From Candidatus Auribacterota bacterium (GTDB taxonomy: Bacteria > Auribacterota > Ancaeobacteria > Ancaeobacterales > Ancaeobacteraceae), in NCBI GenBank assembly GCA_022711655.1, contig JAKLEM010000001.1, positions 1 to 33,726 on the forward strand: 33,726 bases of DNA, in the 5' to 3' direction. The position numbers and the translations under genes are program-made. The notes beneath the pieces are model-generated. The model worked only from the letters and a program-made list of their open reading frames with translations, did not search any database and was not told the origin of the DNA. Position 1 is the stretch's first letter; each line of letters opens with the position of its first letter. Positions 4,915 to 30,128 of this stretch are shown here, piece by piece.

Positions 4915-7900
4915 ATGAATATTTTACCCGTTTTGAAGCGATACCGGTATGCCGTCATCGCGCTCGTTATCGGTGCGCTCGTTTCCCTTTCTCTCTTTTC
5001 GCTCGTCAGGCGGTACGATGACCTGCGTACGCAGGCCGAGTTCGCCCGTCTTTCCCGGGATCACGCGGAGGTGATCAACAACGCCCTGCAAAGCCACGTG
5101 ATGGCGATCTACTCGCTCAGGTCGTTCTATCTGGCCAGCAAGGAGGTCGACCGCGACGAGTTCCAGAAATTCACCATGGGGTTCCTGTCAGACTACCGGA
5201 CGATATTGACGCTTGCCTGGATCCCCCGCGTGCGGGAAAAAGAGCGCGCCGCTTTCGAAGAGGCCGCCGTCCGCGCCGGTTTTGCCGGCTTCGCCATAAC
5301 CGAGATGGACGCCGCGGGCAAGACGGCGGCCGCGCCGCGCCGCGCCGATTATTTTCCGATCTGGTATATCGAACCGATGCGGGCGAACCGCAGCATCATC
5401 GGGTTCAACTCCGCATCGAAGCGGGAGCGGCTGGAAGCGATGCGCCGGGCTCGCGACGACGGGAAACCGGCGATGACCGGGCGTATCGATATGCTCAAGA
5501 AGAGCGGCGACGCCGGCTACCAGATCTATCTGCCGTTCTACGCGGCCACGACGGGCCCTGTTCGGTTGGAAGACCGCCGCAGCAACTGCGCCGGGTTCTT
5601 CTGCCTCACGTTCAGCATGCGCAACCTGATAGAGCAGGCGACCAGCAAGCTTGCCCGGGTAGGGGTCGACACGTTCGTTTTCGAGATCAGTTCCGGCGGA
5701 AAGAAAGAGCTTGCCTGCGCGATCGGTTCCCGCTTGCGCAGCGACCGCCTCAGTTTTCAGCCGGCCAGGGGCGCGCATCGTTTTGTCACGGAGACGACCG
5801 TCGAGGTCGCCGGCAGGAGGTTCTCGATCCTGTTCAGCCCCGCCGATAGCTATATCCGCAAACATCGTTCGGGCCACCCGTGGATCGTCCTCGTCCTCGG
5901 CCTGATCGTTACCGGTATGGGGACGTTCTCGCTCGTGCGGATGGCGGACAGGTCCGACGAGGTGCGGAAGCTCGTCGATGTCAGGACCGCCGAGCTGAAA
6001 GAGTCGAACGACGACCTGCGCAGCGCCGTCGCCGCGCAGCAGCAGGCTGAGCTCGCCAACCAGCAGCTTGCCGCCGAGAAGCGGCAGCGCGAGGAGACGC
6101 TCCGGCTCCTCGAGCGGGCGGTCACCAACACCAGCTGCGGCATCCTCATCACCGACCTGTCCCTCAAAGAGAATCCTATCGTTTTCGTGAACCGCTCGTT
6201 CGAGATAATCACGGGATATGCGCGCGACGAGGTTATTGGCAAAAACTGCCGCTTTCTCCAGGGGCCGGACACCGATCCCTCGGCGTTGCGCGTCATCCGC
6301 GAAGCGCTCTCCAGGTCGACCGACTGCCGTGTCGTGCTGAAGAACTACCGCAAGGACGGACGGCCGTTCTGGAACCAGCTCTTCATTACGCCGCTCAAGG
6401 ACGAGAAAGGGGCGGTGACGCACTACATCGGCGTTTTGACCGATATGACCGAGCTGAAACTTGCCGAACACGAGCTGCGCAAGCTGAACCGCGCCGTCGA
6501 GCAGAGCCCCGCGTCGATCGTGATCACCGATACTAACGGCGTTGCCGACTATGTCAACCCGAAGTTCACTGAGCTGACGGGGTACCGGCCGGAAGAGGCG
6601 GTCGGGAAAAGCCTGTTGAGGTCGGCAGAGATGACGGACGATGCCTTTAGGCATCTCTGGGATACGGTGGTCGCCGGCGGGATATGGCGCGGCGAGGTCC
6701 GTAACAGGAAAAAAAGCGGAGAGCTCTACTGGGAGCTGGCGCAGATATCCCCCGTCATCGACGCCGACGGCAGGGTCTCCAACTACATCGCTGTCAAGGA
6801 AGATATCACCGAGAGCAAGCGGATGCAGGAGGAACTGCAGCGCGTCTCGACGGTTCAGAAGGCGATCCTCGACAGCGCCAACCTGTCTATTATGTCGACT
6901 GACGCGAACGGCCTCGTGAAGACGTTCAACGCCGGCGCCGCCCGCCTCCTGGGGTATTCCCCTGACGAGGCGGTCGGCAAGAAGAACATCGCGGCGTTCC
7001 ACGACTCCGAAGAGCTGAAGCGGCGCGCCCGCGAGCTCTCCCCGGAGATGAAGCCGGGTTTCCAGGTGTTCGTTGCGAAGGCGGCGATGGGGCTGAGCGA
7101 GGAGCGCGAGTGGACGTTCATCCGCAAGGACGGCGCGCGGTTCCCGGGGCTTCTATCGGTGACGGCGCTGATGGACCGGGCGGGGAACATTAACGGTTTT
7201 CTCTTCACCGGCAGCGACATCACCCTGCGCAAGCAGGCCGAGGCGGCGATGCAAAGCGCGAAAGAGGCCGCCGAGTCGGCGAACCGCGCAAAGAGCGATT
7301 TCCTGGCGACGATGAGCCACGAGATCAGGACGCCGATGAACGCGATCATCGGGATGGCCGACCTCCTCGGCGAGACGAAGCTTGATGCCGACCAGGAGAA
7401 ATATGTCAGGACATTCAAGTCGGCGGGAGAGACGCTCCTGAACCTCATCAACGACATCCTCGACCTATCCAAGATCGAATCGGGCAACCTCATGCTCGAG
7501 AACATCGATTTCGACCTCCATGACCTGCTGGAAAAGACCGCCGAAGTGATGGCGGTGCGCGCGCACCAGAAGGGGATAGAGCTGCTGTATCAGATCGCTT
7601 CCGACGTTCCCGTGCGGCTCAGGGGCGACCCGGCCCGCCTGAGGCAGATCTTCATCAACCTGATAGGGAACGCGATCAAATTCACGGAAAAAGGCGAGGT
7701 GTTCCTCAAGATCGAGAAAGACCCTGCGGGGAAGGCTGCGGAAGCGCTGCGCTTTACCGTTGCCGATACCGGTATCGGTATAGCGAAAGACAAGCTGCTG
7801 CGCGTCTTCGAGAAATTCACGCAGGCGGACTCGTCGACGACGCGCAAGTACGGCGGCACCGGCCTCGGCCTCAGTATCTCGAAAAAGCTTGCGGAGCTGA

Positions 7901-9018: not shown

Positions 9019-9053
9019 GCGGTCGCTGCGCCGCCATGAACAAGGATCGCGAA

Positions 9054-9365
9054 ATGACGGAACAGAACGGGAAGATCGTTATCCGCGTCGATCACGACAT
9101 CGCGGACCTGATACCGGGGTTTCTTGACAACCGGCGCAAGGACGTCGTGAAGATCGCCGACGCGCTCTCCCGCGGCGACTTCGAGGTGCCCCGCATCCTC
9201 GGGCACAGCATGAAGGGGGCCGGCGGCGGGTACGGGTTCGACGCGATCACCGAGATAGGCGCCGCGATAGAGGCTGCGGCAAAGGCGGCCGACCCCGGGT
9301 CCATACGGGAGCAGGTCGGGAAACTCGAAACGTATCTCAATTCGGTCGAGGTGGTCTATGAATGA
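9054..9365 (+). CDS. HPt histidine phosphotransfer protein
   Basis: A 103-residue four-helix phosphotransfer protein. The acceptor motif LGHSMKGAGGGYGF (His about residue 48) is the HPt signature H-x-x-K-G-x-x-x-x-x-G. It should shuttle phosphoryl groups from the receivers of the upstream hybrid kinase to the single-domain receivers encoded downstream. I chose the ATG at 9054 because AAGGA (9042-9046) lies 7 bp upstream; an earlier in-frame ATG at 9036 has no ribosome site. The last 8 bases overlap the start of the next gene, so the genes are translationally coupled. The partners are inferred from gene order. Confidence 0.88.
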   Translation: MTEQNGKIVIRVDHDIADLIPGFLDNRRKDVVKIADALSRGDFEVPRILGHSMKGAGGGYGFDAITEIGAAIEAAAKAADPGSIREQVGKLETYLNSVEVVYE

Positions 9366-11565
9366 AGCGCGCGAAAAACAGGGCGGCTGCAGGCTGTTCC
9401 ACGAGATATTCCCGCCGTCGCTGTATCCGAAGTTCAAGGCGTACATCGCAGACCGGTACCGCCTGTCCGCGGATCAGAAGGCCGCTATCGCCGCGGTGCC
9501 GCCGTCGCGGGCCTGCGATATCGCGCCGGCCGCGGGGATCGATGCGGCTACGCTTGCCCGGGCCATCGCCGAGTTTCTTGAGGCGGGATATGCCGGCGAG
9601 ATCAATCCCGAAGACGTCTTTATCGACCCGGATACGCTTGATTTCTGCAAGAAGCACGGTGTGGTCCTCGTCAGGGAGCCGGACGGCGGCGACGCCTATG
9701 TCATGAGCAACCCGTTCAACTGGGAGCTCCTCGACACGATCGACGACGCAGCGCTCCACTCCGATAACTGCCGCCTGAGAGTCGCACAGCAGGATGCGAT
9801 CACCGACGTCCTAACCTGCGAATATGTCAACGACACCGTCGGCAGCCGCATACAGTTCTCCAATCCGGCGGCCGACAAGATAATTATTTCGCAGGAGGGG
9901 GCTAAGGCGGAAGCGGAGACAAACCCGGTGGTGTCGATGGCGAGCGGCATCATCGCGCGCGCGCTGCTCGAGCGCGCCAGCGATATACACATCGAGCCGA
10001 AGGAGAACAAGACGGTGGTGAGGTTCCGCGTCGACGGCGAGATGCGTGACGTTTTTACGCTGAAGAGACAGACGGGCGCCATGGTCATTTCCCGCTACAA
10101 GGTGATCGGCGGCCTCGACATCGCCGAGAAGCGGCGCCCGCAGGACGGCTCGGTCGAGGCGGTCCTGGACAACAAGATGCTCAAGCTCCGCATGGCGACG
10201 TCTTCGACGCCGCACGGCGAGAGTATGGTCATCCGGATCCTCGATTCGTCGGTGAAGCCGAAGCAGCTCAACGAGCTCGGCATGACCGAGGAGCAGACCC
10301 GTGCGCTTGTCGAGCTTTCCAACCATACGCAGGGGATGATCCTCGTCGTGGGCCCGACCGGCTCGGGCAAGACGACGACGATCTACAGCCTTTTGATCCA
10401 GGTCGACTGCAAATCCCGCAGCCTCATGTCGGTCGAGGACCCGGTCGAGTACGTGATCCCGTACGCCAACCAGCAGCAGGCTAACGAGCGTGCTGGGATC
10501 ACATTCGCCTCACTGCTCAAGTCGGCCGTGCGGCAGGACCCGGACATCCTGTTCCTCGGCGAGATCCGCGACCAGGAGTCGGCGAAGATCGCCGTCGACT
10601 TCGCGAGCACCGGGCACATCACGATCAGCACGCTCCATACGTCCAACGCGACGACGGCGGTGTTCCGTCTCGAGCGCCTCGCCGTTTCCGGGGGCGTCAT
10701 GGCGGACACTATGCTGGCGATCATCGCGCAGCGGCTGGTGAAGAAGCTGTGCCCTGCCTGCAAGAAGGTCGAGGAGCCTACGGCGGAAGACCGCGCCATC
10801 CTCGCGCAGTTCACCGGCGATATCCCCGGCCGCGTCGGGCATCCCGCCGGATGCCCGAAATGCCGGCAGACCGGCTACCTGGGCCGGGTCGGGGTGTATG
10901 AGGTTCTGCGGTTCGACAAGGAGATCTCGCAGATGATCCGCGCCGGCAAGGCGATATCGGACATACGGGCATTCGTGCAGGCGAGGGGCGATTACCTGCT
11001 GTCCAACCACGCCATCGAGAAGGTTCGCCAGCTGGAGCTCTCCCCGAAAGACGCCTATGAGAACGTGCTGGTCGAGGAGGTAGGGAATGTAGCCGTGGCG
11101 GAAGATCGGAAGCCCGCTCCTGCGGCGCCGAGCGCCCCCTCTTCGGTGCCCGCGCCTGCGCCCGCGGCGCCCGTTGAGGCGGCCGAGCGGGGCGCCGCGA
11201 TCCTGGTTGCTGAAGACGACCCCGATACGCGCTCGCTGATCGAACGGCTGCTGGGGGCGGCGGGGTACGAGGTGTCGGTCGCGGGCGACGGTATTGAGGC
11301 GCTGCTGCTCCTCGGAAAACAGCGGTTCGACCTGATCCTTTCAGACATCAACATGCCGCATCTTGACGGCTTCAAGCTCCTCGAGATGGCCGGACAGAAG
11401 GGGATCACCAGCCCGGTCGTCTTCCTGACCGCTTCGGGCCAAGAGAGCGACGAGGCGAAAAGCCTGGAGCTGGGCGTTGCGGACTTTATGACGAAGCCGA
11501 TAAAGAAAGAGGTGCTCCTCGCGCGGATAAAGAAGATCCTCCAGCGCCCGGGGCGCCCGGCATAG
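9358..11565 (+). CDS. GspE/PilB-like secretion ATPase fused to a receiver domain
   Basis: A 735-residue protein. The N-terminal ~165 residues are a divergent GspE-type N-domain that does not obviously match the c-di-GMP-binding MshEN motif. The ATPase core has Walker A GPTGSGKT (332-339), Asp-box acidic residues (SVEDPVEY), Walker B ending at E402 (ILFLGEIRDQESA), His box (GHITISTLHTSNA) and a tetracysteine zinc site (CPACKK ... CPKCRQ). These features place it in the type II secretion/type IV pilus assembly ATPase family. After a Pro/Ala linker the C-terminal ~120 residues are a receiver domain (LVAEDDPD; acceptor D663 in SDINMP; Lys in TKPIKK). No other pilus or secretion genes are present in the window. 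Phosphorylation through the adjacent HPt could control the ATPase; it may power a pilus encoded elsewhere or have a regulatory role. It overlaps the HPt gene by 8 bp. Confidence 0.9.
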   Translation: MNEAREKQGGCRLFHEIFPPSLYPKFKAYIADRYRLSADQKAAIAAVPPSRACDIAPAAGIDAATLARAIAEFLEAGYAGEINPEDVFIDPDTLDFCKKHGVVLVREPDGGDAYVMSNPFNWELLDTIDDAALHSDNCRLRVAQQDAITDVLTCEYVNDTVGSRIQFSNPAADKIIISQEGAKAEAETNPVVSMASGIIARALLERASDIHIEPKENKTVVRFRVDGEMRDVFTLKRQTGAMVISRYKVIGGLDIAEKRRPQDGSVEAVLDNKMLKLRMATSSTPHGESMVIRILDSSVKPKQLNELGMTEEQTRALVELSNHTQGMILVVGPTGSGKTTTIYSLLIQVDCKSRSLMSVEDPVEYVIPYANQQQANERAGITFASLLKSAVRQDPDILFLGEIRDQESAKIAVDFASTGHITISTLHTSNATTAVFRLERLAVSGGVMADTMLAIIAQRLVKKLCPACKKVEEPTAEDRAILAQFTGDIPGRVGHPAGCPKCRQTGYLGRVGVYEVLRFDKEISQMIRAGKAISDIRAFVQARGDYLLSNHAIEKVRQLELSPKDAYENVLVEEVGNVAVAEDRKPAPAAPSAPSSVPAPAPAAPVEAAERGAAILVAEDDPDTRSLIERLLGAAGYEVSVAGDGIEALLLLGKQRFDLILSDINMPHLDGFKLLEMAGQKGITSPVVFLTASGQESDEAKSLELGVADFMTKPIKKEVLLARIKKILQRPGRPA

Positions 11566-11617: not shown

Positions 11618-11964
11618 ATGGCGAAGGTCCTGATCGTCGATGACGACCCTGATATCGTGAAACTGTACACGACGCGCCTCTCGCAGGAAGGTTTCTCGGT
11701 GGTCTCTGTTACCGACGCCTATCAGGGGGTCAAGTGCGCGCGGAGCGAGAAGCCGGACCTGATCGTGCTTGACCTGATGCTCCCGGCGGGGGGGGCGGTC
11801 TTTCGGCTTTGACGAACCTCAGGAGATTGCAGGAGACCATGAAGATCCCGGTCGTTGTGGTTACTGGAACGGATGATCCCGCCGTCCGCCGGGATGTCGT
11901 CAGCCTGGGAGTGAACGCATTTATTAAGAAATCCGCCGGCTGGAGCGCGGCGCGGCAGAAATAG
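11618..11964 (+). pseudogene. Single-domain response regulator, frameshifted at a G8 run
   Basis: The frame starts MAKVLIVDDDPD with GAGGGGAG (11605-11612) as ribosome site, reaches the acceptor motif VLDLMLPAGG, then hits a run of eight G (11778-11785) and stops at 11810-11812 after a few unrelated residues. Reading on in the frame reached by adding one G gives GLSALTNLRRLQ, then MKIPVVVVTGTDD, then LGVNAFIKKSAGW. This matches the next gene's product position by position, up to a stop at 11962-11964 (~115 residues). It is therefore a complete receiver apart from one base. It is a tandem paralogue of the 11985 gene. It could be an assembly error, a true pseudogene or a phase-variable or slippage-controlled gene. 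Confidence 0.82.
11778..11785 (+). other. G8 homopolymer at frameshift point
   Basis: Eight consecutive G within the receiver gene, exactly where the reading frame breaks. G9 would restore the frame. Runs of this length are known hotspots for polymerase slippage and also for long-read sequencing errors. Confidence 0.8.
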
Positions 11965-11984
11965 AGTCTGAGGATACGGAGCTT

Positions 11985-12359
11985 ATGGCCAAGATACTGG
12001 TCGTCGAAGACGATCCCGATATCAGCAAGTTGTACAAGCTGCGTCTCGAGCTGGCGGGCCACACCGTCATCGAAGCGGTCGACGCTTATCAGGGGGTGAA
12101 GCAGACGCGCAAAGAGAAGCCTGACCTGGTCATCCTCGATCTCATGCTGCCCGCCGGCGGCGGCACCTCGGTGCTGGAGAATATCAGGGCGCTCCCGGAA
12201 GGGAAGCGCGTGCCCGTTGTCGTCGTGACCTGCGTGCAGGACCCGGGGATCAGGCAGCTGGTGTTGGACCTGGGGGTCGAAGCCATCTTCGACAAGTCAG
12301 GCAACTGGGACTCCATCATCGCGACCATCCACGGCATCCTGCAGAACCGCGGCAAGTAG
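11985..12359 (+). CDS. Single-domain response regulator (CheY-like)
   Basis: A 124-residue stand-alone receiver with no output domain. The acidic pocket is EDD in LVVEDDPD, the acceptor Asp is in VILDLMLPAGGG, the switch Thr in VVVVTCVQD, and the conserved Lys in AIFDKSGN. The Gly-rich loop after the acceptor (PAGGG) is shared with the frameshifted neighbour, which marks the pair as tandem duplicates. It begins 20 bp after the neighbour's inferred stop. It is probably a phosphate shuttle or protein-binding switch served by the HPt at 9054. No target can be identified from sequence. Confidence 0.9.
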   Translation: MAKILVVEDDPDISKLYKLRLELAGHTVIEAVDAYQGVKQTRKEKPDLVILDLMLPAGGGTSVLENIRALPEGKRVPVVVVTCVQDPGIRQLVLDLGVEAIFDKSGNWDSIIATIHGILQNRGK

Positions 12360-12453: not shown

Positions 12454-12825
12454 ATGGCGAAAAAGACGATCCTCATCGTTGACGATGAAGAAGACATACT
12501 CGATACCCTCGAGATCCGCCTGAAGAAAAACGAATATGACGTCATAAAGGCGGGGTCGGGAGAGGAGGCGCTGACCGTTGTGCGCCAGCGGAAGCCCGAT
12601 ATCATCGTCCTGGACGTGATGATGCCGCCGCCGAACGGGTATCAGGTGTGCCGTATACTCAAGGACTCGGTTGAGTTCGGGAGCATTCCGATCGTACTTC
12701 TCACGGCGCGCGGGTCGGAAAGCGACAAGTTCTGGGGTATGGAGTCCGGTGCGGACGCCTACATGTCGAAACCCTTCAACAACGAGGAGCTCCTTGCGCT
12801 CATACGGAGGCTCGTCTATGTGTAA
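12454..12825 (+). CDS. Single-domain response regulator leading the pel operon
   Basis: A 123-residue CheY-like receiver: IVDDEEDI acidic pocket, acceptor Asp in IIVLDVMMPPPNG, switch Thr in IVLLTARG, and Lys in YMSKPFNNEE. All key residues are intact. A GGAG (12441-12444) precedes the ATG by 9 bp. It follows an A/T-rich promoter-like gap, and its stop overlaps the start of the PelA-type hydrolase by 8 bp, so it is the first gene of the coupled pel unit. That position suggests it carries the phosphorelay signal to Pel production, by protein contact rather than DNA binding. It is clearly more distant from the 11618/11985 pair than they are from each other. Confidence 0.92.
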   Translation: MAKKTILIVDDEEDILDTLEIRLKKNEYDVIKAGSGEEALTVVRQRKPDIIVLDVMMPPPNGYQVCRILKDSVEFGSIPIVLLTARGSESDKFWGMESGADAYMSKPFNNEELLALIRRLVYV

Positions 12826-13699
12826 CAAAGGACGTCCGGCCAGGCTCATCGCCCTGGCCATTCTTTTGCTGTTCCTGCCGGCCGCATTTGGCGGCGTGAA
12901 ACAAAGGCCCTCTCCCCTGAATAAGGTCAACAACTGGTGCATCCTTATCGGCTACGATCAGTCGCGGCCATCCGCAAACGCATCCTCATTGGATGGATAT
13001 GACATGGTCATCCTCGACCCGGATTGCCACCCGCCCCTGTCGGGGATCAAGAAGAAGGCGGTCCTGATCGCCTACGTCAGCGTCGGAGAGGCCGAGGGGT
13101 ACAGGAGCTACTGGAACCGGATCAAAGAGAAGCCCTGGATAATCGGCGAGAACGAGAACTGGAAGAAGAACTATTATGTCGACGTCCGCGATCCCGAATG
13201 GCGCGAACTGCTCCTGACGGAAGTTATCCCGATCGTCATCGAGAAGGGGTTCCGGGGGATCATGATGGATACCCTCGACACCGCAGAGTATCTCGAATAT
13301 ATCGACCCGGAACGGTTCAAGGGATCGCAGGACGCGATGATCTCGCTGGTCAAAGAGATCCATGAGCGTTTCCCTGATCTGCTGCTTATCAGCAATAACG
13401 GGTTTCCCCTGCTGACTGAGCTGGCCCCTTGCTTGAGCGGCTTCCTTGTCGAGTCGATACACATGATGCCCGATTTCAAGGCAGGCGGATACATCCCCGT
13501 ACCCGAAGAGGAATATCAGGAGAAGGTCCCGCTGCTCCGGGTTTTGTCTAAACAGCATGGGATCCCCGTGTTCGCGATCGATTATGTCGACGCTTCGGAT
13601 AGGAAAAAAGCCGCTGAATGCGTCAAACGCCTGAAAAAGCTCGGGTTCAAGCCGTGTATCGCGCAGAAGGATCTGGAGGAATTGCCGGCACGTCAATAA
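12818..13699 (+). CDS. pelA: PelA-type glycoside hydrolase, stand-alone (GH114/GH166-like)
   Basis: A 293-residue secreted TIM-barrel hydrolase. Residues ~1-25 form a signal peptide (hydrophobic LIALAILLLFLPAAF). The barrel shows the family's acidic motifs: VILDPD (D67), VSVGEAEGYRSYW (E91), GIMMDTLDT and PVFAIDYVD. Relatives include endo-alpha-1,4-polygalactosaminidase and the N-terminal hydrolase domain of Pseudomonas PelA, which cuts Pel. In classical PelA this domain is fused to a deacetylase; here it is alone, with the deacetylases as the next two genes. The start at ATG 12818 is fixed by GGAGG at 12806-12810 and the signal peptide, and overlaps the receiver gene. A paralogue with roughly half its residues identical closes the operon at 30129. 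It probably trims or releases Pel in the periplasm. The hydrolase role is strong; exact specificity is inferred. Confidence 0.85.
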   Translation: MCNKGRPARLIALAILLLFLPAAFGGVKQRPSPLNKVNNWCILIGYDQSRPSANASSLDGYDMVILDPDCHPPLSGIKKKAVLIAYVSVGEAEGYRSYWNRIKEKPWIIGENENWKKNYYVDVRDPEWRELLLTEVIPIVIEKGFRGIMMDTLDTAEYLEYIDPERFKGSQDAMISLVKEIHERFPDLLLISNNGFPLLTELAPCLSGFLVESIHMMPDFKAGGYIPVPEEEYQEKVPLLRVLSKQHGIPVFAIDYVDASDRKKAAECVKRLKKLGFKPCIAQKDLEELPARQ

Positions 13700-13720
13700 A
13701 GTATCCGGGGATCGGTTGCC

Positions 13721-15934
13721 TTGAATAGTATTCTAAACAAACGGTTGAGACAGCATACATCCCTCCCTCGCATCCTCGCCTTCGCCGCATCCGTTCTCAC
13801 GTTTTCCTGTCTGTGCGCGCCCGCGTGTTGCGCGGCCGTTGATCAGGAGCCGTTCAGAAGGACGATCATCGGGATCTACGACGGCGCGGATGAGGACGAT
13901 TTTCCCGACCAGAATAACCTCGTGCACTCCTGCGCCGAGATGCCGCTCAACTATCTTGGGATGAAAGTGGTGCCCCATGATATCGGGACGGGGCTTCCTT
14001 CCCCGGAAAAGATGCGCGATGTCCGCGGCATACTTGTCTGGTTCAGGGACGAAAAGATCCCCTACGCGAGCGAATTCGTCGCATGGGCGAAAAGCCAGGT
14101 CGCCGAGGGGATATCCCTCGTCTTTCTCGGCCACATAGGAGAGTTGAGAGACAGCAAGACGGGAGAGACGGTCTCGGACGAAGAGGTGAACGGCCTTTTG
14201 ACCGAGATCGGACTCCGGTTGACGCCGAACTGGACCGATAACGTCACGCTGATCCGTGTCGTGGACAAAGACAGCGACATGGTCGAGTTCGAAAGGACGC
14301 TGTCGAAAGAGATCGACCAGTACGAGTGCATAAGCTCGATCGACCCGAGAAACCGCGTCTACCTGACGCTTGAAAGGACGGATATCCCCGAGAGCAGGAG
14401 CGCGGCCGTTGTGATCACTCCCCGCGGCGGATGCGCCGCACTATCGTACCCGCTCTTCTCTTGGAGGGCGATCCAACGCTGGAGGATCAACCCCTTCCGG
14501 TTCTTTGAAAAGGCGTTCCGCCTCGAGGGGGCGCCGCGGTACGATACCACGACCCTGTTCGGGAAGAGGATATTTTACAGCCATATCGACGGCGATGGCG
14601 TCGACAACGTGAGCGAACTGCCCGGCGCGAAGCTGTCCGGAGAGATAATAAAGGACAGGGTCCTCCGGCAGTACCCTGCGCTTCCGGTGACGGTCTCTTT
14701 TATCGTCTCCGATATCGACGGGCAGGGGATGGGCAAGAGGAAACTGTTCGGGCTGGCGCGGGAGATACTCGCGCTGGATAACGTCGAAATGGGATCTCAC
14801 AGCTACACGCATCCGCTTGACTGGGAGCGGAAGATCACCACCGACGCGATTCCGGGCTATTCCGCTGAGTTGGGGGAAGCGGAACGGCTCGATCTGAATT
14901 CCGAATCTGACTGGTATACTGCCGCGAAGGTCACGGTCGACGATGAGACGTACCTGAATAAGGAGATCGACTACGCGGTCGGCTATGCCGACAAGAACCT
15001 TGCCCCGCACGGGAAGAAGACGATGGTGTATCAATGGACCGGCGATTGCCGCCCCACCGCGCGCGCCATCGAGATGGTCGACGACAGGGGGCTCTACAAT
15101 ATCAACGGCGGCGATTCGCGGATGGACCGGCTTAACCCGAGTTACACAGCCGTGTCTCCACTGGCCCGCCAGGTCGACGGCAGGATCCAGCCGCTGACCA
15201 GCAGCGCCAATGAGAACATCTACACGAACCTCTGGAAGGGGCCGTTCTACGGGTATATCGCCGTGATCGAGACCTTCCAGCAGACGGAAACGCCGACGCT
15301 CTTTCCTTCGGCGCCGCGGCGGGTCAGCCCGATCAACGTTTATTACCATTTCTACAGCGGCGAAAAGCGCCAGTCGCTCGGCGCCCTGCAAAAGGTCTAC
15401 GATTACGTCCTGACGCAGGACGTCATTCCGATCTTCACTTCCCGCTATGTCGCCGGTGTCCGGGGTTTTTTCACGGGGAGGATCGTGGAGCTGCCGGGCG
15501 GCGGCTGGGGATTCAGCGGTTACGGCGGATGCCGGACGGCCCGGTTCGACAACTCGCGTAAATACCCGGACCTCAAAAGATCCCGGGGGATCCTCGGGTT
15601 CACGCGATGGAACGACGCGCTCTACGTCCATCTTGCCGAGGGTGGGCCCGGCGTCCTGTTCCTTTCGGATAAACCGCCAACGGAGCCGTACCTGAAAGAA
15701 TCCTCGGTCCTGTTGTCGAGTGTGTCGATCTCTGCGGAAAAGATCCTGTTCGTCGCCGACAGCGTCGGCGGCGGGACCGTCACGTTCGCCAACATGGTCC
15801 CCGGCGGGCGATACGAGGTGCGGTGCGCCGGCGAGGCGAACGCGTTGCAGGCGTCCGCCGACGGGATGCTTTCGGTTAAGGTCCCGCCGAAACACGGCAT
15901 CAGTGTTGAGATCGTCTCAATAAGGCAGCCATAG
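13721..15934 (+). CDS. pelA: PelA-type polysaccharide deacetylase, copy 1
   Basis: A 737-residue secreted protein matching the C-terminal part of PelA (Rossmann-like region plus CE4/CE18-like deacetylase). A hydrophobic signal segment spans ~17-38. The deacetylase core holds YSHIDGDG (H288, D290, D292) and the metal-binding GSHSYTHPLDW (H360, H364), equivalent to the Asp and two His ligands of PelA. MVYQWTGDC and INVYYHFYSGEKRQS follow, then a C-terminal beta domain from ~650. Pel needs partial de-N-acetylation for export, so this is its likely step. The start is a TTG at 13721 with a weak upstream GGGGAT; a TTG at 13745 is an alternative. The following gene is a close tandem copy, beginning on the last base of this one's stop. 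Confidence 0.85.
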   Translation: MNSILNKRLRQHTSLPRILAFAASVLTFSCLCAPACCAAVDQEPFRRTIIGIYDGADEDDFPDQNNLVHSCAEMPLNYLGMKVVPHDIGTGLPSPEKMRDVRGILVWFRDEKIPYASEFVAWAKSQVAEGISLVFLGHIGELRDSKTGETVSDEEVNGLLTEIGLRLTPNWTDNVTLIRVVDKDSDMVEFERTLSKEIDQYECISSIDPRNRVYLTLERTDIPESRSAAVVITPRGGCAALSYPLFSWRAIQRWRINPFRFFEKAFRLEGAPRYDTTTLFGKRIFYSHIDGDGVDNVSELPGAKLSGEIIKDRVLRQYPALPVTVSFIVSDIDGQGMGKRKLFGLAREILALDNVEMGSHSYTHPLDWERKITTDAIPGYSAELGEAERLDLNSESDWYTAAKVTVDDETYLNKEIDYAVGYADKNLAPHGKKTMVYQWTGDCRPTARAIEMVDDRGLYNINGGDSRMDRLNPSYTAVSPLARQVDGRIQPLTSSANENIYTNLWKGPFYGYIAVIETFQQTETPTLFPSAPRRVSPINVYYHFYSGEKRQSLGALQKVYDYVLTQDVIPIFTSRYVAGVRGFFTGRIVELPGGGWGFSGYGGCRTARFDNSRKYPDLKRSRGILGFTRWNDALYVHLAEGGPGVLFLSDKPPTEPYLKESSVLLSSVSISAEKILFVADSVGGGTVTFANMVPGGRYEVRCAGEANALQASADGMLSVKVPPKHGISVEIVSIRQP

Positions 15935-18117
15935 TGGAAATACGCATCCGGAAACCGTCCTTGTTGTTGGTATCCTGCCTGTGTGCCGCGCTCGTCATCT
16001 TCCCGCGCATCTGCCGGCCGGAAACGGCCGCCCCTGCCGAACAGAAGCGGGTGATCCTCGGGATCTACAATTCCAAGGACGAGCCCTTTCTCTCCGACCA
16101 GAACAATCCGATCCATGCCTGCGCCGAGATGGTCCTGAACAATCTCGGCATGAAAGTGGTCCTGCACGATATCGCGTCGGGGATTCCCCCTCAGGAAAAA
16201 CTGGAGGACGTCCACGGTATTTTTGTCTGGCTCGAAGGAGACGAGGTCCCGCACGCGTACGAGTTCATCGAGTGGTGTAAGCGACAGGTGGAGCAGAAGA
16301 AGCTCCTTGTCATGCTCGGGTATGTGGGAGAGCTCAAGGACACGGTCAACGGCCAGGTGATCGACGGCAGCGAGATCAACCTCCTTCTCTCGAAGATCGG
16401 CCTCGCGTTCCGCTCGAGCTGGACCAACAACCCGCTGATCGTGCAGATCGGGCTGACCGACAGCGGCATGGTGGAGTTCGAGAGGACGCTCTCGTGCGAG
16501 GCCGACGAGTACGCCTGGATAAAACCGGTCGACCCGCTGGCCCGCGTCTACCTGACCCTCCGGAGGAAAGACCTGCCGAACAGCAAGAGCGCGGCTGTGG
16601 TCACCACGCCCCGGGGCGGGTGCGCCGTCGCGCCGTACGATATCTTCAAGCGCGGCCCGATGAAGCGCTGGAGGATCAATCCCTTCCGCTTTTTCGAGAA
16701 GGCGTTCGGCCTCGACGGCAAGCCGCGGTACGATACGACGACGCTGTTCGGGAAAAGGATATTCTATTCCCATGTCGACGGTGACGGCGTTGCCAACGCC
16801 AGCGAGTTCTCCTGGGCGAAAATAGCGGGAGAGGTCGTACGGGACAAGATACTCAAGAAGTACGCTTCCGTGCCGGTGACGGTCTCTTTCATTATTTCCG
16901 ACGTCGAAGGCCAGGGGATCGGCAAGGAAAGGATATTCCGGCTTGCGAGGGAGATTTTCGCGCTGGACAACGTGGAGATGGGGTCGCACAGCTATACGCA
17001 TCCCCTCGACTGGGGACAGAAGATCACCGTCGGCGTCATCCCCGGCTACTCCCGTCCCATACTGAGTTCCGATAAGCTCGATATCGCTTCCGAATCGGTG
17101 TACGGCCGCGCCGCGCTGGCTACCGTTGGGACCGAGACGTTCCTGAAAAAAGAGGTCGATTACGCGGTCGACTACGCCGACAAGGAGTTGGCGCCGCCGG
17201 GGAAGAAGACGATGGTGTATCAATGGACCGGCGATTGCCGCCCCCCCGTGCGAGCCATAGTGCTGGCCGATGAGAAGGGGCTGTACAACATCAACGGCGG
17301 CGATTCGCGGTTCGACAAGATGACGCCGACCTACACGACCGTGGCACCCCTGACGCGGCAGATCGAGGGCCTGATACAGCCGCTGACCAGCAACTCAAAC
17401 GAGAATATCTACACGCGTCTCTGGACGGGGCCCTACTCGGGATACCGGGCGGTGATCGAGACGTTCAAAGAGACCGAGCGTCCCACCTTCTTTCAGGCAC
17501 CGCCGCGGCGGGTCAGCCCGATCAACGTCTATTATCATTTTTACAGCGGCGAAAAGCGCCAGTCGCTGGACGCGCTGCAAAAGGTCTACGATTACGTCCT
17601 GACGCAAGACGTCATCCCTGTTTTCACATCGCGCTACCTGGCCGGCGTGCGCGGGTTTCACACGGGGAGGATCGCGGAGCTTCCCGACGGCGGCTGGGAA
17701 TTCAGCGGCTATGGCGGGTGCCAGACGGCGCGGCTCGACAATTGCACGAAGCACCCCGACCTGAAAAGGTCGCAAAAGATCCTCGGGTTCACGCGCTGGA
17801 ACGACGCGCTCTATGTCCATCTCGCGGAGGGAGGCCCGGCAACGCTGTACCTCTCGGACGTGCCGCCGCCGGAACCGTATTTGCGGGAATCGTCGGTCCT
17901 GGTGTCGGAGGTCTCGATCTCGGCGGAGAAGGTCCGGTTCGTCGCCGACAGCGTCGGCGGCGGGACGGTGACGTTCGCCAATATGGCGCCGAATAAAGAT
18001 TACGAGATGCGGTGCGCCGGCGAAGCGGCCGCGTGCCGGTCCTCTGCCGAGGGGGTCCTGTCGGTGAAGGTCCCTGCGAAAAGAGGTATCAAAGTGGAGA
18101 TCGGGTTAAAAGGGTAA
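15934..18117 (+). CDS. pelA: PelA-type polysaccharide deacetylase, copy 2
   Basis: A 727-residue tandem paralogue of the preceding protein, with the same order: signal peptide (~1-30), Rossmann-like region, deacetylase with YSHVDGDG (H280, D282, D284) and GSHSYTHPLDW (H352, H356), then a C-terminal beta domain. All catalytic and metal positions seen in copy 1 are kept, so both should be active. DNA identity is patchy: 45 bases at 17200-17244 equal 15011-15055 exactly, and 32 bases at 17575-17606 equal 15386-15417, while flanks differ, which looks like recent duplication or gene conversion. The start is GTG 15934, overlapping the previous TAG, with AAGG at 15922-15925. It may form a heterodimer with copy 1 or act on a different chain length; neither can be shown here. 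Confidence 0.85.
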   Translation: MEIRIRKPSLLLVSCLCAALVIFPRICRPETAAPAEQKRVILGIYNSKDEPFLSDQNNPIHACAEMVLNNLGMKVVLHDIASGIPPQEKLEDVHGIFVWLEGDEVPHAYEFIEWCKRQVEQKKLLVMLGYVGELKDTVNGQVIDGSEINLLLSKIGLAFRSSWTNNPLIVQIGLTDSGMVEFERTLSCEADEYAWIKPVDPLARVYLTLRRKDLPNSKSAAVVTTPRGGCAVAPYDIFKRGPMKRWRINPFRFFEKAFGLDGKPRYDTTTLFGKRIFYSHVDGDGVANASEFSWAKIAGEVVRDKILKKYASVPVTVSFIISDVEGQGIGKERIFRLAREIFALDNVEMGSHSYTHPLDWGQKITVGVIPGYSRPILSSDKLDIASESVYGRAALATVGTETFLKKEVDYAVDYADKELAPPGKKTMVYQWTGDCRPPVRAIVLADEKGLYNINGGDSRFDKMTPTYTTVAPLTRQIEGLIQPLTSNSNENIYTRLWTGPYSGYRAVIETFKETERPTFFQAPPRRVSPINVYYHFYSGEKRQSLDALQKVYDYVLTQDVIPVFTSRYLAGVRGFHTGRIAELPDGGWEFSGYGGCQTARLDNCTKHPDLKRSQKILGFTRWNDALYVHLAEGGPATLYLSDVPPPEPYLRESSVLVSEVSISAEKVRFVADSVGGGTVTFANMAPNKDYEMRCAGEAAACRSSAEGVLSVKVPAKRGIKVEIGLKG

Positions 18118-18121
18118 CGGT

Positions 18122-20035
18122 ATGGGAATACGCGTCTGGAAATCGATATTGTTTTTCGCCTGCATCCTGTTCGTCGCGTACGAGCTGTTCCCGTCGGGAA
18201 GGATGATGGGACGCTTGTACCTTCAGGGACAGGAATTCGACAAGGCGGTCTTTTACCTCGAAAAACAGTACCATCAGGATCCCTCCGATACGGCGAATTG
18301 CCGGCGGTACCTGGAGGCGCTGCTCGAGAAAGGGGACATGAAGAACTTCGAGAAGGTGGCGCGCGAGATCACGGCGCGGCACTTTGACACCGCGGACATA
18401 CAGGAGATCCTGGCGCGCTATTACGAGAGCATCCTCGATATCGACTCGGCTGCGGCGTGCTGGAAGCGGATCCTTCAGCACGACATAAAGCAGGAGGATG
18501 TGCGCGACCAGCTGATCGCCTATCTCCTGGACCGGAAACAGTACAGAGACCTTGCGGAGGTGTACGAGCGATGGATCGCCGCGGGCGATGCGCCTGTCGA
18601 TATCTATTACGAGCTGGGCAGGATATACCTGCACGAGAAAGACATGGTGCGGGCCCGCAGGGTTTACCGGGACCTCATTCTTAAAGTCCCGGACGAATTC
18701 GACGCGAATTTCTTCCTTGCGCTGACATACGAATCGACGGGCGATACCGCGCAGGCAGTGGAGGTCTACTGCAAGCTGTTCGAAATGAGCGGCATCACCG
18801 AAGAGAGGGAGTGCATGCTCGCCGACAAGCTGATCGAGCTGAAGCAGTATGAGATCGCGAAGGCGCGCCTGCTGGCGCTCCGCAAAAAATATCCCAACAG
18901 CATCCGGGAGCTCGAGCTGCTGGGCTCGCTCTACATGCGCACGGGAGAAAAGGACGCGGCCTACGATATCTACAAGAAGATCTACGAATCCTTCCCCGGC
19001 CAGACATCAGCGCTGAAGGAGATGGCGTCGTTCGAATTCGACCGCGGGCACTACGACGCCGCCGCCGAGCTCCTGAGGATGTATCTCAAGAACAACGGCG
19101 ACGACAGCGACGCCGCGGCCTTTCTCGCCTCGATCCTCTACTGGAACCTTGACAGGAAAGACGAGGCGATCTGGATGCTGGAGAAGCTCAGGGCCGAGCA
19201 GCCGAACAACGTTGCGTTCCTGAAAAGCCTCGGCGAGTTCTATAACGGGACCGGCAACTACGGCAGGGCCCTGGAGATGTTCAACGCCTATAACGCGAAG
19301 ACGGGAGGCAGCTACGAGGTGTCGATGCTCATGGCGTCGCTGCTATGGAACCTCAACAGGGTCGAGGAGGCGAAGCTTGTCGCCGCCAAGCTCTTTGCCG
19401 ACCGGAAGGCGCATGCCGACTCCTATAAGGAGCTGGGCAGGATACTGACCGATCTCGGCGACTACGAGCGGGCCGTCCTGGTGCTGAAAGAGGCCTGCCG
19501 GAACGAGACCGACGACGAGGCGCTCTATCTTCTCGCCAACAGTTATAAGGCGACGGGGAGAAAGCGCGAGGCCGCCGCCATCGCCCAGCGGCTTTGGTAC
19601 AAACGGCCCGAATACCCCGAGCTGGTGGCGCTGTTGTGCGAGCTGTATGCCGACGACCGCCAGTATGACCGGGCCTTCTACCTGATAAAGAAATACCGCG
19701 CCCGGAAAGGCGACGACCTGCAGATCGCGCTTGTCGAGGTGGAGGTTCTCCGGAAGAAGGGCGACATCCAGGAAGCGGCCAAGGCGTGCGCCATCCTTGT
19801 CGACCGGTATCCCGAGAAGATAGAGCTGGCAAAAGAGTTGGCGATAATCTATAATGACATGGGTCTGTACCAACAAGCGAAGGACATGCTGGAGGTATAT
19901 CATGCGAAGGCGAGCGGGGATTATCTGTCTCATCATCTGCTCGGCGATATCCTTGCCGAGCTGGGTGACACCATCGGAAGCGAGAGAGAATACTCCCGTG
20001 CGTTGGAGCTCATCAGAAAAAAAGATCGGCGATGA
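18122..20035 (+). CDS. pelB: PelB-like TPR protein, N-terminal half of split pelB
   Basis: A 637-residue protein with an N-terminal membrane anchor (ILFFACILFVAYELF, ~8-22) followed by tandem TPR repeats throughout (for example YYELGRIYLHEKDMVRARRVYRDLILKVPD and HLLGDILAELGDTIGSEREY). This matches the TPR scaffold of PelB, which binds PelA and guides Pel to the outer membrane. It ends RKKDRR just after a seven-A run (20017-20023). Removing one A joins it without a break to the TPR-plus-barrel frame downstream, giving ~1413 residues; Pseudomonas PelB is ~1190. Codon use stays typical of the region up to the A-run, and the final TPR is intact. So this is probably the front half of one pelB gene, truncated by an error, a mutation or a slippage site. 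It begins 4 bp after the deacetylase stop. Confidence 0.85.
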   Translation: MGIRVWKSILFFACILFVAYELFPSGRMMGRLYLQGQEFDKAVFYLEKQYHQDPSDTANCRRYLEALLEKGDMKNFEKVAREITARHFDTADIQEILARYYESILDIDSAAACWKRILQHDIKQEDVRDQLIAYLLDRKQYRDLAEVYERWIAAGDAPVDIYYELGRIYLHEKDMVRARRVYRDLILKVPDEFDANFFLALTYESTGDTAQAVEVYCKLFEMSGITEERECMLADKLIELKQYEIAKARLLALRKKYPNSIRELELLGSLYMRTGEKDAAYDIYKKIYESFPGQTSALKEMASFEFDRGHYDAAAELLRMYLKNNGDDSDAAAFLASILYWNLDRKDEAIWMLEKLRAEQPNNVAFLKSLGEFYNGTGNYGRALEMFNAYNAKTGGSYEVSMLMASLLWNLNRVEEAKLVAAKLFADRKAHADSYKELGRILTDLGDYERAVLVLKEACRNETDDEALYLLANSYKATGRKREAAAIAQRLWYKRPEYPELVALLCELYADDRQYDRAFYLIKKYRARKGDDLQIALVEVEVLRKKGDIQEAAKACAILVDRYPEKIELAKELAIIYNDMGLYQQAKDMLEVYHAKASGDYLSHHLLGDILAELGDTIGSEREYSRALELIRKKDRR

Positions 20036-22364
20036 GCTCGAGAGCAAGATGGAAGAGGTAGAGTACCTGTGGCGGCAGGGCAAGAAGGCCGAGGCGGATA
20101 CCCTCGTCACGGCCCTCCTCGACGCTTTTCCGGATAACACCGACCTGATCCAGATGGCCGTCTCGATCAAGCTCGAACGGAAGAACTTCAAGCGGGCGCA
20201 CGAGCTGATGCAGCAGCTGGAGGTTGCCAGCGGCAAGCCGGTCCCGGTCCCGGTCTTTTCCGAGGAAGGCGCGCAGCAGGACTTCACTCAGGAAATGACG
20301 CAGCCGACCTCTCCTTCTCCTTTTGAAAGTGCTCCGCTTGCCTCCCCTCCGGAAAGGCGCGAGTCGGAGTATGTGCCCGATTATCCCGTGCCGTATCCCG
20401 CGTCTGTCCCCGCCAGGCGCGAGGCGAGGGCGGTCGACGGCGCCGCCCGCAAAGTGGAAGAGGCCCGGCTGCTGTGGAAGCTGGGGAAAAACGTCGATGC
20501 CGACGCACTCATCACGTCGCTGCTCAAGACATACCCGGATAACGTCGAACTTCTGAAGCTTGCCGTAACGGTCAAGCTCGCCATGGGTGATCTCAAGCAG
20601 GCCCAGGAATTGACCGAGACCCTGAGATCGGTCAGCGAATCCGACAATCTCCGCCGGCGGTTCGACGGGTCGAAGCCCGCGCAGATGCGTCAGACCGACA
20701 AAGTCGCCCGCAGAGTCCAGCGGGGATGGCTGCTCTGGAACGCGGGTAAAAAGGGCAAAGCGGAGGCCCTTGTCAGGTCGCTGCTCCGGCAATACCCGAA
20801 CAATATCGGCCTGCTGAAGCTGGCGGTCGCCATCAGGCTTGACCGAGGCGATATCAAGGGGGCGCAGGAGCTGCTCAAAAAGATAGAGCGCGTCGCGTCG
20901 ATGCCCGGCGCCGGCACGGTGATGGTCCCCGGCTCGCTGGCCGCTGCCGACCTCGATATCGGCCGAAGCATCGAAGAGGCGTGGCTGCTGTGGAAACTGG
21001 GCAGGAAGGACGAGGCCGACGCACTCGTGACGATGCTCCTCAGGTCATACCCGCGCGATCCCGAGCTTCTCCTGCTTGCCATTACGGTCAAGCTCAACCG
21101 GGGCGACATCAAATGGGCGCAGCAGCTGCTCGACACGCTGGGTTCCGTCATCGGCCGGGAGAACCCCCTGTACCGCGACATAGCGAGCGAGGTCTACCTG
21201 AAGCTCGGGAAATCCGACAAGGCGTGCGAGCTGGTATTGGGGCTCTGCGAGCAGTTCCCCACCCGCGAGAGCTACCGCAGAAGATACGCGGAGCTCCTCA
21301 GCGACCTCAAGAAATGGCCGCAGGCGAAAGAGGCGTACGCCAAGCTCGACCGGCTGACGTTATCGAACAGCGACGTGGCGTGGGATTATCACGAGGCGGT
21401 GAGCCAGGGCGCGACGGCGGTCAGAAGCGATTACATGTATTACCACGGACCCCAGTCGCTCCGCGAGTACGAGTTCGTGCAGCGCGCCTCTTTCTGGCCG
21501 TTCAATAATCTGCAGATGGAAGGCCGGTTCTTCGAGGAAGGGCACAAGATGGTGACGGATGGCATCAACGAGAAGGTGACCGGCCACGGCCTCGCCGGAC
21601 GGCTGGTCTACAACCCGCAGATAGAGATCCTCGGCGGCTGGGAAGCGGCCTATAACAGGGACCAGATCTACAACGAGCTTTTTCTCGGCGGAGATTTCAG
21701 GCACAACGACATATTCCATACCACGGTCGGGTTCACCTATAACCGCCTGGTTCGCGACCCGATAGAGGGCCTGTTGACCCAGAGCACATACAACAGCCTG
21801 GTCCTCGCGGAGGAAGTGCTGCTTTCCGACGAGCTGACCGTGGGGAATATATTCACCACCAACTGGTACAACATCAACCCGGCGTTCAATCCGTTCACCG
21901 GCGACAGCGATTTCGGGTACAAGGTCTTCAACGACACCTATTTCTCCTACCTCTTCTATAAGAAGCCGGATATCTCGTTCAATATGCATTTCTACCCCTC
22001 GCACTGGCACAAACCGTTCGCTGACGCCCAAGATATCGTCGATTACATCGAGGACGAACGGGTCATCTACGGCGGGTTCCATTTCTCGCACCGGTTCCAA
22101 AATTCCGTCGAAGCGCGCTCGGATATCCGCGACTGGCGAGACTTCAACCTCCTCCGCAACCAGTGCGAGCTCTACTCGGACCTCGCCGAGTGGCGCGACG
22201 TCAAGAGGGCGTACTGGTCGACCATCTTCACCATCGGGACAAACTACTGGCTCACCGATTATTTCGCGTTCAACCTGCAGTATATGTACGGATATAACAT
22301 CAACGGCATAACCGGGCAGGGCAACGCGTCCGAGTTCAGGGGACAGGCGAATGTCTATTTCTAA
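19902..22364 (+). CDS. pelB: PelB-like outer-membrane porin with TPR modules, C-terminal half
   Basis: This frame holds TPR-like modules followed by an outer-membrane beta-barrel. Four ~58-residue copies of a module (EEAxLLWKLGKxxDADAL ... YPDN ... LKLAVTVKL ... GD.K.AQEL) begin near nt 20049, 20449, 20705 and 20967. From ~nt 21430 the sequence alternates aromatic and polar residues in strand pattern and ends in QANVYF with a terminal Phe, as barrel proteins do. This matches the export pore of PelB. The start is ambiguous. ATG 19902 has GGAGG 6 bp upstream (19891-19895) and encodes a credible signal peptide (MRRRAGIICLIICSAISLPS, then a TPSEA cleavage region), but that needs a 134-bp overlap with the upstream gene. 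The alternative is fusion to the upstream frame at the A7 run (20017-20023). I think fusion is more likely. Confidence 0.8.
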   Translation: MRRRAGIICLIICSAISLPSWVTPSEARENTPVRWSSSEKKIGDELESKMEEVEYLWRQGKKAEADTLVTALLDAFPDNTDLIQMAVSIKLERKNFKRAHELMQQLEVASGKPVPVPVFSEEGAQQDFTQEMTQPTSPSPFESAPLASPPERRESEYVPDYPVPYPASVPARREARAVDGAARKVEEARLLWKLGKNVDADALITSLLKTYPDNVELLKLAVTVKLAMGDLKQAQELTETLRSVSESDNLRRRFDGSKPAQMRQTDKVARRVQRGWLLWNAGKKGKAEALVRSLLRQYPNNIGLLKLAVAIRLDRGDIKGAQELLKKIERVASMPGAGTVMVPGSLAAADLDIGRSIEEAWLLWKLGRKDEADALVTMLLRSYPRDPELLLLAITVKLNRGDIKWAQQLLDTLGSVIGRENPLYRDIASEVYLKLGKSDKACELVLGLCEQFPTRESYRRRYAELLSDLKKWPQAKEAYAKLDRLTLSNSDVAWDYHEAVSQGATAVRSDYMYYHGPQSLREYEFVQRASFWPFNNLQMEGRFFEEGHKMVTDGINEKVTGHGLAGRLVYNPQIEILGGWEAAYNRDQIYNELFLGGDFRHNDIFHTTVGFTYNRLVRDPIEGLLTQSTYNSLVLAEEVLLSDELTVGNIFTTNWYNINPAFNPFTGDSDFGYKVFNDTYFSYLFYKKPDISFNMHFYPSHWHKPFADAQDIVDYIEDERVIYGGFHFSHRFQNSVEARSDIRDWRDFNLLRNQCELYSDLAEWRDVKRAYWSTIFTIGTNYWLTDYFAFNLQYMYGYNINGITGQGNASEFRGQANVYF
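20017..20023 (+). other. A7 homopolymer joining the two pelB frames
   Basis: Seven A within codons AGA AAA AAA, four codons before the stop of the upstream pelB frame. With six A the frame continues into RKKIGDELESKMEEVEYLW, the TPR-barrel frame. The site could be an assembly indel, a real mutation or a transcriptional-slippage or +1 frameshift site. Confidence 0.75.
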
Positions 22365-22785
22365 CGACGGCTCACGGATGCCTGCGGTGCTGATCGTCGA
22401 CGACGACAGGGAGTACGCGCGGCACCTCGGGCTCTACCTGTCGTGGCACGGCTACCGCGTGACCGATCTTGCCGATCCGACGGCCGTCATGGAACGTCTC
22501 GAATCGGGCGAATACGACCTGCTGATCGCCTCGCTGTTCATGAAGGGGGAGAGCGGCCTCTCGCTGTGCGGCAAGATCAGCCGATCGTCTTCTCCGGGGG
22601 TCCGCAGGACCGGGATCGTCATGACGTGGTTCGAGGAACCGACGGTCGATATCCTCATCTTTTTCAACAAGAACAATATTCACTTTGTCCTCAAGTTCGA
22701 GAATACCGGGCAATGGCTGGAAAAGCTCGACATAATCCTTCGGGAGCGGAAGGCGCCTCATGAAAAAGAGACCTTACTTACTTGA
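22351..22785 (+). CDS. Degenerate receiver (pseudo-receiver) between pelB and pelD
   Basis: A 144-residue receiver-fold protein. The acidic pocket is present (LIVDDDRE, D17-D19), but the phospho-acceptor Asp is replaced by Ser (S61 in LLIASLFMKGESGL). The switch and Lys regions are also altered (VMTW; LKFEN). It therefore should not take a phosphoryl group in the usual way and probably acts as a protein-binding module. It starts 14 bp before the pelB stop and its end overlaps pelD by 26 bp. It lies roughly where the lipoprotein gene pelC is found in Pseudomonas, but it has no signal peptide and is not PelC. It may couple the upstream phosphorelay to the Pel synthase through PelD; that is inference. 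Confidence 0.85.
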   Translation: MSISNDGSRMPAVLIVDDDREYARHLGLYLSWHGYRVTDLADPTAVMERLESGEYDLLIASLFMKGESGLSLCGKISRSSSPGVRRTGIVMTWFEEPTVDILIFFNKNNIHFVLKFENTGQWLEKLDIILRERKAPHEKETLLT

Positions 22786-30081: not shown

Positions 30082-30128
30082 GGGCGGCAGGACGAATACG
30101 CCGGGGCGAACTCTTTAAGGAGCGAATT

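Follow-up and report, generated by a model that had tools for sequence, protein, structure and literature searches.

The window, meaning the whole 33,726-nucleotide stretch of DNA analysed here from a Candidatus Auribacterota bacterium (contig JAKLEM010000001.1), contains a gene for a hybrid histidine kinase followed by genes for an Hpt protein, a receiver-bearing ATPase, stand-alone receivers and a Pel-type exopolysaccharide cluster (Table 1). The kinase has the architecture CHASE-LOV-PAS-PAS-HisKA-HATPase-REC-REC, and Pfam recognised three PAS-type domains, the first of which is the LOV domain; codon 402 begins at position 6118 and codon 520 finishes at 6474.

Table 1 Features of the window (positions in nucleotides unless given as residues).
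Feature	Position	Strand	Basis
Hybrid histidine kinase, 1367 aa	4915..9018	+	Open reading frame, Pfam scan
Kinase domains: CHASE 77-258, LOV 408-513, PAS 524-631, further PAS, HisKA 792-857, HATPase_c 904-1019, two receivers (residues)			Pfam scan
Second receiver of kinase, residues 1248-1362			Pfam scan
LOV domain, residues 402-520	6118..6474	+	Residues read, PDB sequence matches, AlphaFold2 model, Foldseek
Codon of C445, adduct-forming cysteine	6247..6249	+
Codon 508, TTG (Leu) at conserved Gln position	6436..6438	+
Hpt protein, H in GHSMKGAGGGYGF	9036..9365	+	Pfam Hpt, alignment with relatives
GspE/PilB-family ATPase (T2SSE), C-terminal receiver with Asp	9358..11565	+	Pfam, NCBIfam, orthologues
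Single receiver gene, frameshift at eight-G run, tandem copy of next gene	11618..11984	+	Three-frame translation
Stand-alone receiver, Asp present	11985..12359	+	Pfam, alignment
Stand-alone receiver, Asp present, overlaps start of first GH114 gene	12454..12825	+	Pfam, sequence
Pel-type exopolysaccharide cluster	12818..30989	+	Pfam, NCBIfam PelF, gene order in relatives

The initial annotation had read a LOV signature in this part of the kinase, and every residue proved correct as read: the adduct-forming Cys is present as C445 in GKNCRFLQG (GxNCRFLQ motif), and the pair of Asn residues that contact the flavin ring is present as N477 (NYRKDG) and N487 (PFWN). In a comparison with PDB sequences, the domain matched the LOV domains of aureochrome, a multi-sensor hybrid kinase, phototropin and YtvA with E values of 6e-35 to 1e-29, the best matches being those of aureochrome (about 6e-35). 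An AlphaFold2 model of the domain, built on 21 LOV sequences, had a mean pLDDT of 93.8, and its top PDB matches in Foldseek were LOV structures (query TM of 0.72–0.89), the highest-ranked being Meiothermus MrLOV, Brucella LOV-HK and YF1. The region 6118–6474 encodes a genuine LOV domain, an identification that is far beyond chance, and as judged from its residues the domain has everything required for flavin binding and formation of a cysteine adduct.

The last-strand Gln of LOV domains is replaced by L508, in YIGVLTD. Alignment to LOV domains of known structure, which had been proposed as a check, placed L508 on the conserved Gln column (aureochrome LOV, E about 6e-35), and the crystallised AsLOV2 Q513L protein (7pgz/7ph0) was also among the PDB matches (1e-31). 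This column is occupied by Gln in 61 of the 74 LOV domains of our first sample with the Cys and both Asn residues intact, as well as in all of the nearest named LOV domains (Halomonas, Planctomyces, Chloroflexaceae and SAR324 records, about 50–54% identical). The possibility that the Gln equivalent lies elsewhere in the strand was rejected: residues 497–513 contain no other Gln, and Q488, which follows N487, is common to ordinary LOV domains, being found also in the Gln-keeping relatives L005 and L021. A sequencing error is an unlikely source of the Leu, given that TTG is two substitutions from CAG and a single-base error is therefore insufficient to explain it. With its LOV residues conserved and the Gln replaced, the domain is, on its sequence, a member of the known class of natural Gln-less LOV proteins (LOV-deltaQ), here located within a multi-sensor hybrid kinase.

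About 350 such natural proteins have been described, which likewise carry the Cys signature with the Gln replaced by a hydrophobic residue, most commonly Leu or Ile (Dietler et al. 2022, PMC9098866). The LOV Gln was found to be generally dispensable in that work: versions of several receptors with Leu in place of Gln still signal, often more weakly; dark recovery of AsLOV2 Q513L is about 22 times slower; and a Mesorhizobium loti LOV-GGDEF-EAL protein with Met at the Gln position responds to blue light (PMC9098866). The earlier statement that some Gln-less LOV receptors still signal is thus in agreement with published results, and, given this dispensability, the Gln is a usual rather than a defining LOV feature.

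The description of Gln-less LOV domains as rare, on the other hand, was overstated, in view both of the published number and of our own survey of 399 genomes from the phylum of the Halomonas record (Pseudomonadota) and 392 from that of the Planctomyces record (Planctomycetota). Among nonredundant LOV domains with the Cys and both Asn residues intact, the Gln was absent in 15 of 106 for Pseudomonadota and in 4 of 18 for Planctomycetota, fractions that may be somewhat inflated because the search used a Leu-bearing query and an E-value limit. Open frames were longer for Gln-less LOV domains (median of 974 versus 564 amino acids; Mann-Whitney p of 1e-4, not corrected for kinship), and 19 of 20 Gln-less domains were in frames of more than 450 amino acids. 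These figures suggest that Gln-less domains are a common fraction of bacterial LOV domains and occur mainly in long multi-domain proteins. In a tree of 153 LOV domains, constructed from a short alignment and with many forks open, the Gln label needed 15 changes, compared with 20.9 for shuffled labels, and at least four of the 15 were forced by well-supported branches. A single Gln-less clade is not supported by these counts; one group of six rows was entirely Gln-less, and the window LOV, with a long end branch of 0.77, fell in no supported group. Within the limits of the short alignment, the tree suggests that the Gln state changed repeatedly rather than having a single origin. A per-column comparison for compensating residues in Gln-less domains (22 versus 131 sequences, uncorrected for kinship and multiple testing) revealed only modest differences. 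A separate plasmid search yielded 293 records with LOV-like matches. In LOV-like domains from Onishia (L009 and L014, 6019–6369), Cys is replaced by Gly and Gln by Met, with the rest of the domain retained.

No signature-intact LOV domain was present among the PAS matches read from the 43 other genomes of the phylum that were searched, all of these matches lacking the Cys; no close homologue carrying the window LOV was found in the phylum genomes searched, and no second LOV was found in the bacterium's own genome, which is about 75% complete. This isolation within the phylum fits acquisition from elsewhere. Given that the GC3 of the LOV part of the gene (about 0.83) is the same as that of its surroundings, any transfer would not be recent or would have come from a similar donor genome.

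The kinase is closely followed by its putative partners, the Hpt gene beginning 17 bp past the kinase stop codon and overlapping the ATPase gene by 8 bp. The Pfam Hpt match (E of 4.5e-5, 24.0 bits) is just below the cut-off of 24.6 bits, and the protein aligns with the COOH-terminal Hpt domains of two relative kinases, which pass the cut-off. HisKA, HATPase, receiver and Hpt are all present with their phosphorelay His and Asp residues intact, as in a hybrid kinase/Hpt phosphorelay. The ATPase gave a T2SSE match of 1.9e-108 and contains the Walker A motif GPTGSGKTT, and its NCBIfam GspE and PilB matches are below the equivalog cut-offs; it is assigned by these matches to the GspE/PilB family, and with its receiver it is most likely the output of the phosphorelay.

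Two matches stood out in a phylum-wide search with the ATPase, one in genome G039 at 43% identity (571 bits) and one in G017 at 46% (497 bits), whereas the next reached 332 bits. In both genomes (L078/L079), the ATPase gene lies directly 3' of a gene for a hybrid kinase ending in Hpt, and the Hpt motif HxxKGxGGxYGF is common to the window and the two relatives. The Hpt was found at an E value below 1e-19 only in these two of the 42 other phylum genomes searched, with one weak partial match in G013. In two other families of the phylum, a HisKA-REC-Hpt kinase adjoins a receiver-ATPase. CHASE, LOV and PAS domains are absent from the G039 and G017 kinases in the reading frames examined, so that the sensory front end of the window kinase is best read as an add-on. 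As judged from these gene arrangements, what is conserved is a module of kinase, Hpt and ATPase/receiver; the lineage of the window differs in the extensive sensory front end of its kinase and in encoding the Hpt as a gene of its own.

The phosphoacceptor arrangement appears to vary among these proteins, given that the intact receiver is NH2-terminal in the G017 and G039 ATPases but COOH-terminal in the window ATPase and that a second receiver of the G039 ATPase is degenerate. The kinase core is 50% identical to that of G017 over 390 positions, but the highest-scoring core in the phylum belongs to G021 (49%), which leaves strict orthology of the core unproven. On G021 contig L279, a 1311-residue kinase with several receivers is encoded 0.5 kb upstream of a T2SSE ATPase, a possible kinase-ATPase pair. 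The bacterium's own genome encodes two other T2SSE ATPases, one of them beside PilC- and pilin-like genes, from which a pilus system for the receiver-ATPase probably exists. A second T2SSE ATPase of this genome (L088:6936–9155, minus strand) has an MshEN domain and a COOH-terminal receiver, and receiver-fused ATPases are also present in G001 and G013. We found nothing directly relevant to CHASE-LOV kinases or receiver-fused GspE proteins in the open-access literature, which does not itself prove their absence.

The kinase had been described as lying upstream of a Pel operon, and PelF, PelG and two GH114 proteins are indeed encoded about 3.8–21 kb downstream on the same strand. The cluster comprises genes for GH114, a PelB-like TPR/porin, a PelD-like GAF protein, a PelE-like protein, a HEAT protein, PelF, PelG and GH114, in an order like that of relatives G020 and G012 (L075/L076). 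PelF was recognised as an NCBIfam equivalog (512 bits, cut-off of 100) and PelG by Pfam (394 bits); the PelD-like protein matched PelD structures only weakly (E of 0.11), and an RxxD site was not evident by eye. The PelC-like gene of L075/L076 is missing from the window, and region 13721–18117 encodes two similar neighbouring proteins of about 730 amino acids, neither with a Pfam match, which occupy the PelA position and probably arose by tandem duplication. The frameshift in 11618–11984 may reflect faulty assembly, a pseudogene or a site of phase variation. A receiver-like protein encoded inside the cluster (22351–22785), between the PelB-like and PelD-like genes, has Ser in place of the phosphoacceptor Asp, and phosphotransfer to it was therefore rejected; the L076 gene at the same site keeps the Asp. 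No conserved linkage of kinase to Pel genes was found in relatives, and the one informative relative locus, the Pel locus of G020 (L075), has no kinase upstream. The link between the kinase and the Pel genes is positional only, and Pel control through the two stand-alone receivers ahead of the cluster is possible. From the placement, the initial annotation had suggested control of the biofilm matrix: a phosphorelay does lie beside Pel genes, but the case for matrix control is weak, the conserved linkage being that of kinase, Hpt and ATPase/receiver.

We somewhat favour the view that a Gln-less LOV domain, together with CHASE and two PAS domains, has been placed before the kinase of a conserved phosphorelay, allowing light to tune a pilus or secretion motor. 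From the conserved residues we infer light sensing, Gln-free signalling and phosphotransfer. Blue light would induce an adduct between C445 and flavin, and the signal would exit the LOV domain through the beta-sheet without the Gln, as reported for variants with Leu in its place. It would then travel along coiled coils to the kinase, where the CHASE and PAS inputs would also be integrated, and phosphate would follow the route His-Asp-His(Hpt)-Asp, with the receiver domain of the GspE/PilB-type ATPase as its end point and the stand-alone receivers that precede the Pel genes as perhaps further ones. The outcome would be a light-tuned pilus or secretion motor and possibly tuned matrix export. Consistent with this proposal are the LOV signature and fold, a Leu codon two substitutions from CAG, the 17-bp gap and 8-bp overlap that flank the Hpt gene, the orthologous ATPases beside Hpt-kinases in G039 and G017, the finding of this Hpt in the same two genomes, the retention of Cys and both Asn residues in Gln-less LOV domains elsewhere, and the signalling retained by LOV proteins with Leu, or naturally with Met, at the Gln position (PMC9098866). 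Response regulators also act on the PilB motor in light responses of cyanobacteria (PixE-PilB1; PMC7690835). Against it, no close homologue with this LOV domain was found in the phylum genomes searched, the kinase could function without light through its other input domains, the position of the intact receiver varies among the related ATPases, and the COOH-terminal receiver of the ATPase need not be the sole target. A narrower version, in which the phosphorelay ends directly on the motor-fused receiver and blue light gates the pilus or secretion motor, in a phylum otherwise without a signature-intact LOV in the genomes searched, is tentative and in our judgement rather doubtful.

That the kinase instead chiefly governs the Pel matrix under blue light, through the stand-alone receivers beside the Pel genes, we consider unlikely. 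The kinase and first GH114 genes are 3.8 kb apart on the same strand and receiver gene 12454–12825 overlaps the latter; in Xanthomonas, exopolysaccharide, motility and biofilm are all influenced by a LOV hybrid kinase (PMC3366940), and a Myxococcus single-domain receiver can directly activate exopolysaccharide synthesis (PMC12802240). However, intergenic gaps and the frameshifted receiver separate the kinase set from the Pel set, we found no DNA-binding regulator in the intervening region, the receiver within the Pel cluster carries Ser for Asp, and the G020 Pel locus lacks an upstream kinase. Also improbable is a reading in which flavin is bound and an adduct may form, but loss of the Gln has uncoupled the LOV domain and left it a decaying remnant, with the kinase answering only CHASE and PAS ligands. 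The lost Gln, the isolation of the domain in the phylum and its long tree branch would fit such a history, but decay would be expected to strike the Cys or Asn residues too, all other signature residues are retained, and the Gln-less LOV proteins tested so far mostly still signal (PMC9098866). We regard it as very improbable that the flavin senses redox state instead of light, a role suggested for ancestors of LOV receptors; signalling by LOV proteins through flavin reduction without an adduct has been described (PMC4682037), but the adduct Cys and its motif are intact here, and C445 would be superfluous for redox sensing.

Among known systems, AsLOV2 Q513L (7pgz, 7ph0) shares with the window LOV the same core and a Leu at the same position, but is an engineered plant domain, whereas the window LOV is natural, bacterial and part of a multi-sensor kinase. 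The M. loti protein has a GGDEF-EAL (diguanylate cyclase) output and a measured light response, whereas the output encoded in the window, known from sequence, is a hybrid kinase that carries CHASE and PAS domains and is accompanied by an Hpt. LOV input to a histidine kinase is found in Brucella LOV-HK and the Xanthomonas LOV kinase, the latter also a hybrid, with canonical LOV photochemistry and effects on motility, exopolysaccharide and biofilm (PMC3366940); the CHASE domain and the Hpt-ATPase/receiver gene set are features of the window that are not claimed for these two kinases. In cyanobacterial PixD-PixE-PilB1, a receiver-type protein acts on the PilB motor in a blue-light response, as proposed for the window, but that system relies on BLUF and PATAN-CheY proteins, whereas in the window the ATPase carries its own receiver domain, which a phosphorelay would feed.

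The LOV domain is ordinary in kind, and the interest of the locus beyond the earlier reading lies in the conserved kinase-Hpt-ATPase/receiver module. Given that only one natural Gln-less LOV protein was tested for a light response in PMC9098866, the kinase would test the generality of Gln-free signalling, and the module is a case in which control of a pilus or secretion motor by a phosphorelay could be tested.
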